Positions 46,801-63,674 of a DNA stretch of 64,000 nucleotides are shown here, piece by piece. The position numbers were made by a program, and so were the translations under genes. The notes under the pieces were generated by a model that saw only the letters and a program-made list of their open reading frames with translations, did not search any database and was not told the DNA's origin. Within the stretch, counting starts at the first letter, position 1. Every line of letters starts with the position of its first letter. This stretch comes from Macrotis lagotis (lineage: Eukaryota > Chordata > Mammalia > Peramelemorphia > Peramelidae), in contig NC_133663.1 in NCBI RefSeq assembly GCF_037893015.1, positions 1,836,878-1,900,877 on the forward strand, written 5' to 3'.

Positions 46801-49800
46801 GTCTTCTTCACCTCCCTACCCACCCCCTGCCGTGACAGGATTTGAATTCAAGTCCTTCTAACTCCATTTACTTGCACAGAGGAGAAAGTAGCAAGCATAT
46901 TAGTCGCCTCTTGTGGCCCAGGCCCTGTATTAAGGGCTTAGCAAACTTTACCTCCCTTGGTCCTCACGACACTATGGGAGGGAAATGCTATTGTCACCGC
47001 TTTACAGTTGAAGAAACTGAGTTGGACAGAAGGGACCTAACTTTCCCAGACTCTTGTAGTTCAGTTGTGCCCGACTCTTTGTGGGTCCTTTGGGGTTTTC
47101 TTGGCAGAGATGCTGATGGGGTTTGCCATCTCCTTCCCCAACTCAAGATGATTAGACCATAAAGAGCTCCCCCGTGTTGTCGTCACCCCAAAATCCCCCA
47201 GCTGGTTCTTTGCCCAGTGTTAAGGAATACTGGGAGGGAAACCAAGGCCGAGGACATCACCAGAAGTCCTGCTTCCTATCCTTCAGGCCCTGGGCTGAGA
47301 CGGTTCTGGTAAAGACAGGGAGGAGGAGGAGGTCTTTGCGTAACACTCCCCTCACTCAAATAAACAGTGTGTGAGTCATTCATTCATCCTTTTGATGTCA
47401 TGATCCTCTTTATTTATGAAGGACAACAAAACAAAAGCAACAAAATTTGACAGATGAGGAAACTGAGGCAAGTGGGATGAAGTGACTTGCCTGGGTCACC
47501 CAGATAGTTAGACTCTGAGGTTGGAGTTGAACTCAAGTGTTTCTGACTCCTGGCCCAGCACTAGTTACTGTATTGCCTCTAACTTCAGGGACATGGCATG
47601 TAGAGCTAGCTGCCCCTTCAGGGTTGCATGTTCTGGAAGGGCAGCGCCCAGGGTGATGGACTCTGACAACAGCAGGTGGCTCCCTGGGTAAAGACCAGAC
47701 ACCCATGAAGGCATTACTGTCCCCAGGTGGGTCTTTCTCTTCGAGAAGGGCTACCAGACGGCAGATAGTCTCATCAGCTCGGTTTCAGTGAAGCTCAAGG
47801 GTCTGGCAGTGACCAACATCTCTGGGCTGGGCCTCCAGGTCTGGGATGTGGCTGATTATGTGTTCCCAGCTCAGGTGAGTGAGGAAGTCTGTGTCTGCTG
47901 GGGGTCCTGGGGAGGGCTGTGGGTGGGGGTGTGGCCTCCTGCCGATTCTGCACCCCTAAATCTGGGTGGAGGGAGGAGGCCCCATCGAAGAAGGGCGATG
48001 GAAGGAACCTCCTCCCTCCACCCAGACAAATACCAGTGCAGACCCGAACCGAAACAGGACCCCAATCCTAGCTCTGGCCACACGCTGGATGAGGCCCTTG
48101 CTCCCCCCCCCCCATCCCAGTTGGGGTTTCCCACCTGAGTTTGAGATTTGGCTGGGGAAAGGAAGCAGACAAGAATCCTTGAGGGGAAAGAGCAGAAAAA
48201 ATCCACGCTCTGCCCCCATCTAGATGTGACCTCCCTTCTCCCCCAGCCATCACACTCCAACCCCAACTGATCCCGTTTGCCTCACGACATGGGCTCCCAC
48301 TGTCTGGGCCACAGTGGGCCACCAGACGGATGGCCAAGAGGGCTAGCAGCCCCCTCCTTCCTCCCTGGCTTTCCTCAGGGCCCATGTTGCCCAGAAGCTC
48401 TTCACCCGGTCACCCCACCTCCCCTTCAGAGATTCCCCCTTCCAACCCTGGGAAATTTGTCTTGAATGCCAGAAAGTCTTGTGGACCCGGGCCTGGGGTA
48501 CCAGCCTAGCTGCCTGCCTCCTGCTGCTTGCCCTGGGGAGAAGGGGAGAGGTCAGGGGGGGCCCTTGGGTATGAACAGCACGCAGGGTCTTCTGGACCAT
48601 TAAAATTCTCACTACCACCCCCACCATGACAGGCCCCACAGCCCCCTCCCCAGTCTACTCTCTTCTATGGGCAATATCAGAGCATTGGCCTCAGCATTCC
48701 ACCCCCCCCCCATCTGCATTTTCTTACTTCTAGGGTGACAACTCCTTCGTGGTGATGACCAACCTTATTGTGACTCCCAGGCAGGTTCAAGGGCGCTGTG
48801 CTGATGTAAGGACCCTCTCAGAAAGCATGTGGGCCAAAGGGCTCTCCTCTGGGACCTCAGGGCTGTCTGACCGTGACCTTCCCCTTGACCCCCACCGGTG
48901 TTAATTTGTAGGGTCCGGTTCTATTTGGGGGGGCCACTCCCTGGCTCAGCATTCTCAAATTTGAGAAGCTTGGATTCAAGAGTACACAAGACCCAGCACC
49001 CCATCTCGCCTGAACCTCTATGACTTTCAGGGGCCCAAACCTCACTAGCCCACCTCATCCTGTCTGCTGTGGGAGGAGGGCGCTGGATTTGGGGAGGTCA
49101 GATCTGCCCTCCACTTACTGCGAGACCTTGGCTCAGTCATTGCTTTCCTCAAGGAGGGACAGGAGATTCTTCCTCCCTCGCATCTACTATGCTGGGTTCC
49201 CTTCTAGGAGTTAAAATGCTGACCCTGGAGCCCAGAAGACCTGAGTTCGAATCCTGTCTTAGTCATTTACTGGCTATGTGTCCCTGAAGGAAGCTTAACC
49301 TTTATCAGCCTCAGTTTCTGTGTGTGTGTGTTTGCAAGGCAAGGAGCTTAAGTGTCTTGCCCAAGGTCACACAGCTAGGTATGTGTCTGAGGCTGGATTT
49401 GAACTCAGGTCCTCCTGACTCCAGGGCTGCACCACCTAGCTGTCCCAGCCTCAGTTTCTCTGTCTGTAAAATGGGGGCATTTCTCATAGCACTTACTCTA
49501 GAGAATTGTTGTGAGAAAGCAAATGAAAAGTTGGGTTTTTGGTCTAAGGAGCAAGATGGAGGGAGAAACTGCAAGTTCTTCTTGGCCTGGGACTGAGGGG
49601 AACACGGAGAGAGGCTCCCTGGGGTGGCGTGTTCCCTTGGGGCCTCTGCTGCCACGACACCATGGCTGGCAAGCAGTAGTGGCTCTTGACTGGGATACCT
49701 GTAGGGATGGGGAGCTCATTACCTTGTGGGCAGTTTTAGGAGTGATCCCTGAGGAGCCTGGGGGAGCAGAGGGAGTGGATTCTTCCCTCCTCATGTGGTG

Positions 49801-52800
49801 TCTCCTGTTGCTTTCAGAATCCAGACGTGGGGACCTGCCAGGATGATCGTGCTTGCCCTGCAGGAAAACTCAAACGAAAGGGCCAAGGTGAAGAAGGCCC
49901 CCCGCCCCGCCACCTCCCCACCCCCAGCCAAGTCTCTCTGGGCCCAAACAGCTGCAGTTTCCTCTTCCCAGAGAATCTGGCCTTGGCAAACCCTCCCCAT
50001 TGGGGCACAGACCCTCCAGCCTGGTCCTGGGGCCCAGACCCCACTATGGGGGCCCCTCCCCCTTGTCTCTCCTCCCTCCCTTTCTTTCTCTTTCCCCCCA
50101 TCCTGCCTGCTGAGCGGCTTCCCAAAGGGTGGGGGGGGTGCAGCCAGACCAGAGCCCTGGGTGTGGAGGTTTGGGGGTACCCCCATCTCAGCCCCTCCCC
50201 CGCCCTCCTCTGCGCAGGCATCCAGACAGGCAGGTGTGTGGCCTTTAACAGCACAGTCAAGACTTGTGAGATCCTGGGCTGGTGCCCCGTGGAGGTGGAC
50301 GATCACATCCCAAAGTAAAGGGGGCGGGGATGGGGGGAGGGCTTTGCCTTTAGGACTTAGGTCCTCTCCCAAAGTATTCCCCCACCCCCACACCTCACTT
50401 ATCTCAACAGGAGCCAGATCAGTATCACGAGAAGCTCAGTTAGGGGATCTGAGTTCCAATTCTGCCTCCGCTGCTGACCCACAGAGTGTGACATGCAAAT
50501 GCCCCTGTGACTTCACTAGGTCCCTTCATGACTTCTTTTTAAAAGGAAGGAAGGAAGGGAAGGAGGCAGGAAGAGAGGGAGGAAGACAGGGCGGGAGAAA
50601 GAAGGGGAAGGAGGAAGGAGAGAAGAAAAAGAAAGGGAGAGAGGGAGGGCAGGAGGAAAGAAAGGATGGAAAGAAGAAAGTCTAGAAGCCCCCGACGATT
50701 GACAAATAGCTCTTCTGATCCTCACAACCATCCTGGGAGGCGGGCGCTGTCATCATCCTCATTTTACAGGTGAGGAAACTGAGGCAGGCAGCAGTTAAGG
50801 TTTTCCTGCTCAACCCCTCGGTCAGTGCAGCAGGATTAGGGCAGGAAAAACCTGGGGCTGGGGCTGGGGTGAGGACATGGGTGGGTGCACTGCCTGCTCG
50901 TCTGGGACACGAGGGAGAGAGAGCTCCCAGGAAGGAGGGAGGGTCACAGCTTGGCTCCCTTTGTCATTTTTCTCTTGGGATGGGTCCCACAGGACTGGGG
51001 GTGGGATGTCTCAAGGATGGCCCCTGGAGAAGGGAGGACCCTCCTGCTGCTCCCCCCAGCCCAAAGTCAACGGGTTTGCTTTCCAGATGTTCCGGGGGGC
51101 AACGGAGCATCAGGCCCAACTGGTCTTTGGCCACTTCCCTTTCCCTCGTCCTTCAATGCCTGGACCCCTGGGGTAGGGAAGGGGACGCCCAGAGGCCCAC
51201 CTCATGACCCAGCCCCAAGAGAAGCCTGCCTGATGGCGGCCTTGCTCCCCAATGTTGAGGGCTGGGACATGAGGCTGGAGGGAATGATGCTGACCTGGAG
51301 AGTCAGGCGACCTGTGATCTGGGGACTCGGCTCACTGTAAAGGGGGCAAGTTTGAGCCTGGTGCTTCATTCACTCACTCATTCCCTTCATTCGTTCACTC
51401 ACTCATTCATTCATTCACTCCATTCATTCATTCACTCGCTCCATTTACAAAGCACCAGCTTTATATGAAGGACTAAACTGGTGCATCCATCCCTCCCTCC
51501 CTCCCTTCCTTCCTTGCTTCCTTCCTTCCTTCCTTCCTTCCTTCCTTCCTTCCTTCCTTCCTCCCTCCCTCCTTCCTTCCTCCTTTCCTTCCTTCCTTCC
51601 TTCCTTCCTTCCTTCCTTCCTTCTTTCCTTCCTTCCTTCCTCCCTCCCTCCTTCCCTCCCTTCCTTCCTTCCCTCCTTCCTTCCTTCCTTCCTGCCTTCC
51701 TTCCTTCCTTCCTTCCCCTCCCTCCCTCCCTCCTTCCTTCCTTCCTTCCTTCCTTCCTTCCTTCCTTCCTGCCTTCCTTCCTTCCTGCCTTCCTTCCTTC
51801 CTTCCTGCCTTCCTTCCTTCCTTCCTCCCTTCCTTTCTTTCTTCCTTCCTTCCTCCCTCCCTCCCTCCCTCCTCCTCCCTTCCTTCCTTCCTTCCTTCCT
51901 TCCTTCCTTCCTCCCTTCCTCCCTCCCTCCCTCCTCCCTCTTCTTCCTTCCTCCCTTCCTTCCTTCCTTCCTTCCTTCCTTCCTTCCTCCCTCCCTCCTC
52001 CTCCCTTCCTTCCTTCCTTCCTTCCTTCCTTCCTCCCTTCCTCCCTCCCTCCCTCCTTCCTTCCTTCCTCCCTTCCTTCCTTCCTTCCTTCCTTCCTTCC
52101 TCCCTCCCTCCCTCCCTCCTTCCTTCCTTCCTTCCTTCCTTCCTTCCCTCCCTCCCTCCTGCCTTCCTTCCCTCCTTCCTTCCCTCCTTCCTTCCCTGCC
52201 TTCCTTCCTTCCTTCCTCCCTCCCTCCCTGCCTTCCTTCCTTCCTTCCTTGCTTCCTTCCCTCCCTCCCTCCTTCCTTCCTTCCTTCCTTCCTTCCTTCC
52301 TTCCTGCCTTCCTGCCTTCCTGCCTTCCTGCCTTCCTTCCTTCCTTCCTTCCTTCCTTCCTTCCTTCCTTCCTTCCTTCCTGCCTTCCTGCCTTCCTGCC
52401 TTCCTGCCTTCCTGCCTTCCTGCCTTCCTGCCTTCCTTCCTGCCTTCCTTCCTTCCTTCCTTCCTTCCTTCCTTCCTTCCTTCCTCCCTTCCCTCAGTCG
52501 CTCATTCTCCATTTACAAAGCACCTGCTTTGGATGAATCACTGGTCAGTGGGGGGGGGGGCATTCAAAGATGGAACTGGAATGAGCTTTGTCCCCCCACA
52601 CCTGGAGTTTCTTCCCCTGTGAAAGTCGGGAGTGGGATTGGTCAGGCCTCAGTTGCCCGTAGAGGCTGGCTCTGAATGGCAGTCCTGGGCCTCAAGGACA
52701 GGAGTGGGGAGGGGGCAGGCTCACCCAAGCCACAGTAGAGAACACAAGGCGCAATAACTCCCTGGTCCCTTCCCACTGTCTCTAATTGTTTGGACCTCAT

Positions 52801-63602: not shown

Positions 63603-63674
63603 GTGAGAGGGCTGAAGCTGGCCCCAGGCGGCAGCCCAGGGGGCGACCCCTCCAGCCTTTGTCTCAGTGAAGGG

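Follow-up and report, generated by a model that had tools for sequence, protein, structure and literature searches.

A real tandem duplication of several exons within a gene can be arranged head-to-tail and without a gap, with a one-base overlap at the junction and an exon block which stays in frame. False duplications made during genome assembly are recognized by read depth, by linked reads, by k-mers and by a gap that separates the two copies; such a gap is present in most cases, and some copies are joined by unsupported sequence (Ko et al., 2022; PMC9516828). For the greater bilby, the assembly description in PMC11239497 gives 3.66 Gbp in 609 scaffolds, about 10x HiFi coverage, gap filling with PBJelly and 4.9% duplicated BUSCOs, and its authors suspect residual false duplications. 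The present assembly, in which 3,655,600,598 bases on 607 contigs were searched, is taken as the one of PMC11239497, possibly in a slightly different release. A literature search returned no paper on an intragenic exon duplication of P2RX1 and none on P2RX1 in the bilby.

The window, i.e., the whole analyzed stretch of 64,000 nucleotides (C6:1836878-1900877), contains one dominant direct repeat. By self-BLAST of the window, 48202-55929 was aligned with 55968-63674 over 7751 columns at 98.4% identity, with 54 mismatches and 67 gap letters. Global alignment extended the repeat leftward to 48144 and 55930, past a gap of 20 bases and one mismatch beside it (48201 vs. 55967). The following features were obtained:

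48144-55929, plus strand: unit 1, from intron 2 to intron 9 of P2RX1, with exons 3-9 intact, 684 coding bases and no stop
55930-63674, plus strand: unit 2, the second copy, with one base more in exon 4, one base fewer in exon 5 and in-frame stops
55929-55930, no strand: gapless junction AGTGAAGGG/AGATTTGGCT with an overlap of 1 base (G), at C6:1892806/1892807
48181-48200, no strand: 20-base stretch found in unit 1 only by global alignment, its site in unit 2 lying 37 bases past the junction

The initial annotation had described a head-to-tail duplication of 48144-55929 and 55930-63674, which is confirmed by both alignments, and no N was found anywhere in the window, hence none between the units. 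Its boundaries are correct within one base, as the native flanks have just one G in common at the junction. The candidate explanation of a chance or low-complexity repeat was ruled out, since 7.7 kb are repeated at 98.4% with seven exons inside, and a retrocopy was ruled out by the introns in both units and the AG/GT borders at all seven exons.

When 201 bases spanning the junction were used as a query, the genome contained a single full-length match, and the two halves of the query aligned only with their native sites (99% and 83%). A query of 1001 bases (53000-54000) has two full-length matches in the genome among the best 40 of 1193 candidates scored. With this one query and these 40 candidates, neither a third copy nor an alternate haplotype at another genomic site was found.

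When exons 1-9 are joined and translated, the best match among the solved structures is human P2X1 (582 bits, E 3.7e-174), and the next-best P2X subtype among these structures is P2X4 (402 bits). By its translated sequence the gene is P2RX1, and the initial naming of P2RX1 with exons 3-9 present twice was therefore correct. Two exons upstream of the repeat are present once:

40713-40850, plus strand: exon 1 of P2RX1, single copy, with its end set by eye at GT
47727-47874, plus strand: exon 2 of P2RX1, single copy, ending in phase 0

Exons 3-9 of unit 1 span 48734-55858 and those of unit 2 span 56498-63602, and exon 10 (from 64119) and the C-terminal exon (from 66913) gave one match each just past the window. 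The final exon with its stop was read by eye directly before a run of exactly 10,000 N (67501-77500 in window coordinates), which begins 3.8 kb past the end of unit 2 and 11,571 bases from the junction and may be an assembly gap. With the settings used, no other self-match of at least 600 bases and no second N run were detected in the 144 kb formed by the window with its two flanks of 40 kb. Upstream of P2RX1, exons of ATP2A3 are represented by eight matches between 15529 and 24716, which were found with the C-terminal half of SERCA2 as the query, and no frameshift is apparent by eye in these exon-like parts. Downstream of P2RX1 the gene CAMKK1 would be expected; a CAMKK1 query had no match in the 144 kb. 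The window also contains repeat motifs which are presumed to be marsupial.

Several of these properties would agree with a real tandem duplication that is fixed in the bilby and in which exons 3-9 were doubled through end joining or template switching. The junction is gapless with a one-base overlap, as repair junctions can show, and it is flanked by small changes, with one base about 10 bases before it and the 20-base stretch 37 bases after it. In addition, introns 2 and 9 are both in phase 0, so that the symmetric phase-0 block can be repeated without loss of the frame. Such a fixed duplication is nevertheless considered unlikely, as the N run lies only 3.8 kb away and as the following differences between the units and a second P2X gene in the same assembly also bear on it.

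The differences were counted in approximately 6.6 kb outside a (CCTT)n array, leaving out the 20-base difference and the adjoining mismatch (48181-48201). There are 20 substitutions, which are all transitions (0 transversions), and 13 of the 20 involve a CpG in one copy. This pattern resembles mutation more than read errors and thus speaks for a duplication fixed in the species. The chance of finding no transversion among 20 substitutions lies between 0.0004 and 0.04 under three assumed fractions; this is also unusual for ordinary allelic differences. Additionally, 16 indels of 1-3 bases were found, of which 14 are located in one-base runs (2 to 11 long), one in a TG repeat and one (55919) in neither of these. 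In the global alignment bases are missing in unit 2 in six cases and in unit 1 in ten. As the indels go both ways, unlike in the second P2X gene described below, neither P2RX1 copy looks simply like one raw read.

The divergence outside the array is approximately 0.3%, and as a guess it could be allelic or recent. This would also suit a structural allele with the duplication on one chromosome of the reference female and without it on the other, which is a highly improbable explanation, since all the points raised against a fixed duplication apply to it as well. Three of the substitutions are exonic (49826, 50264, and 55331) and are read as synonymous in the frame of unit 1; such a pattern would be expected between alleles of a functional gene and speaks for a false duplication.

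Unit 1 is open across 228 codons. The coding total of unit 2 is also 684, yet a stop follows soon after the change in exon 4. The frame-breaking one-base changes occur only in unit 2, in C runs of 2-4:

57582-57652, plus strand: exon 4 of unit 2, 71 bases vs. 70 in unit 1 (extra C), with loss of the frame and then a stop
57982-58077, plus strand: exon 5 of unit 2, 96 bases vs. 97 in unit 1 (one C fewer)

Under a fixed duplication, unit 2 would either be in decay or be left out during splicing. In C runs of such short length, however, one-base changes resemble sequencing errors, which argues against the duplication being real in either form.

The array itself was found in both units:

51492-52492, no strand: (CCTT)n array of unit 1 in intron 5 of P2RX1, about 1 kb
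59257-60235, no strand: (CCTT)n array of unit 2, far more divergent from the array of unit 1 than the rest of the unit

In a gap-tolerant alignment of the arrays, which covers about 1 kb, 20 mismatches and 82 gap letters were counted, and no weight was given to them. These arrays of about 1 kb were sequenced through in both copies. The array was ruled out as the cause of the duplication, because it is over 3 kb distant from the boundaries of the units.

A profile search with the P2X family (PF00864) yielded 53 matches in the genome. A further doubled P2X gene was identified, which is presumably P2RX6, by elimination. One of its exon matches occurs twice with equal score at a distance of 25.75 kb, and another exon recurs with nearly equal score. 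The two copies (contig 9, 696912001-696920590 vs. 696937818-696946344) are 99.0% identical in an alignment of 8601 columns, in which 2 mismatches and 85 gap letters occur, and the duplication comprises at least 8.6 kb, as its left end was set by the 38 kb of sequence taken. Copy 1 stops exactly at the start of a run of 12,587 N. In a global alignment, the extra bases are in copy 1 in 56 of 58 indel events; this alignment has 26 mismatches vs. 2 in BLAST, and the excess is ascribed to misalignment. Two further exons of the gene were matched in copy 2 only, so that copy 1, which borders the gap, is probably the less accurate of the two. The doubling of the P2RX6-like gene is probably a false duplication as well and looks like the untrimmed overlap of two assembled pieces. 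Such a comparable duplication at a gap counts against a real duplication in P2RX1, whether fixed or heterozygous.

As a second family, the Kir channels (PF01007) gave 15 matches in the genome without any nearby pair; two of them have an equal score (197.7 bits) and are located on different contigs in different open frames. Errors of this type are thus present in the assembly, but not everywhere.

Further P2X-like sequences were observed on contig 9. Three P2X-like exon sets lie close together at 670569867-670740688, of which, judged by the exon translations, one is presumably P2RX4-like and two are P2RX7-like. The two P2RX7-like sets differ from each other, and P2RX7 may thus have a divergent second copy. 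At 117287167-117287911, two adjoining P2X matches cover the family positions 109-361 without interruption and contain a stop, so that a P2X gene may be represented here by a processed pseudogene.

The doubling of P2RX1 exons 3-9 is probably a false duplication made during assembly. On the assembled sequence this origin is probable, short of proven, and the animal most likely carries a single P2RX1 gene in which exons 3-9 occur once. Among the three readings offered in the initial annotation, that of two haplotypes wrongly placed in series is favored, because the N run lies 3.8 kb downstream and the frameshifting one-base differences are confined to unit 2, and also because the authors of the assembly suspect false duplications and a second P2X gene is duplicated with one copy ending at a gap; a new structural allele and a lineage-specific duplication are less favored. 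The contig and scaffold counts stated in PMC11239497 correspond to about one gap per 828 kb, and if gaps are assumed to be random, the chance of one within 3.8 kb of either end of the duplication is about 0.9%. The 4.9% duplicated BUSCOs reported in the assembly statistics of PMC11239497 likewise speak against both forms of a real duplication. An artifact is further indicated by the small indels, of which 14 of 16 fall in one-base runs, and by the absence of a third copy among the 40 candidates scored for 53000-54000.

The false duplication could have arisen as follows. A first assembled piece would have ended in intron 9 (55929), and a second piece of about 11.6 kb would have started in intron 2, taken in exon 10 as well as the C-terminal exon and reached the run of 10,000 N. 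The second piece would have been set after the first one, with the overlap of 7.7 kb left untrimmed. The two pieces probably represent two haplotypes, which would explain the transitions between the units as allelic differences, and the indels in runs, with the frameshifts among them, are proposed to be due to uncorrected run-length errors of long reads, at least in unit 2. We infer that the second piece was either a short contig of its own or an extension produced by gap filling, and the program that joined the pieces is likewise a matter of inference. According to the outline of the LINKS procedure, a single ‘n’ is put where contigs overlap; a later filling of this ‘n’ at the shared G was considered and is not relied on. 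Flank extension by PBJelly, as outlined for that program, is a possible source of the join.

Several points count against a false duplication. The copies touch without a gap at 55929/55930, the indels go both ways, the lack of transversions is unusual for allelic differences as well, and the 15 matches of the Kir family include no nearby pair. Furthermore, a real duplication could itself cause a nearby gap.

If the duplication were real, an ion channel would have its ligand-binding part doubled in frame, and a transcript taking in unit 2 as assembled would stop in exon 4. If, in addition, both one-base changes of unit 2 were errors, a P2X1 subunit with two tandem extracellular domains would be possible, or alternatively splicing could choose between the two exon sets. 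For a subunit with a doubled ectodomain both exon sets need to be open in one frame, and unit 2 as assembled stops after the insertion in exon 4. A real bilby allele with an in-frame doubling of exons 3-9, which encode the greater part of the ATP-binding extracellular region located between the two membrane helices, is very unlikely. If the duplication is an artifact, it provides a worked example of a gapless false duplication that would be missed by gap-based filters, and P2RX1 as well as the second P2X gene call for a check prior to any use of the gene models of this assembly.

In comparison with real intragenic duplications, the P2RX1 units share the head-to-tail and gapless arrangement, the one-base overlap and the in-frame block, but they differ by the frameshifted second copy and the nearby N run. 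Among the classes of false duplications outlined by Ko et al. (PMC9516828), the homotype is resembled by the many one-base indels in runs and the frameshifts in one P2RX1 copy, whereas the 20 transitions suggest two haplotypes beyond errors alone. The heterotype class, as it is presented there, is defined by read depth and k-mers, while the P2RX1 case is known from the assembled sequence, in which the differences between the units could supply such k-mers. A gap between the copies is also among the features named in that work (PMC9516828); the P2RX1 copies, unlike heterotype false duplications, touch without an N gap at 55929/55930, and the N run follows 3.8 kb after unit 2. Like the heterotype false duplications characterized in PMC9516828, the locus has two copies which resemble haplotypes and share one scaffold; the long-read depth of the assembly is low, and an N run is close by.
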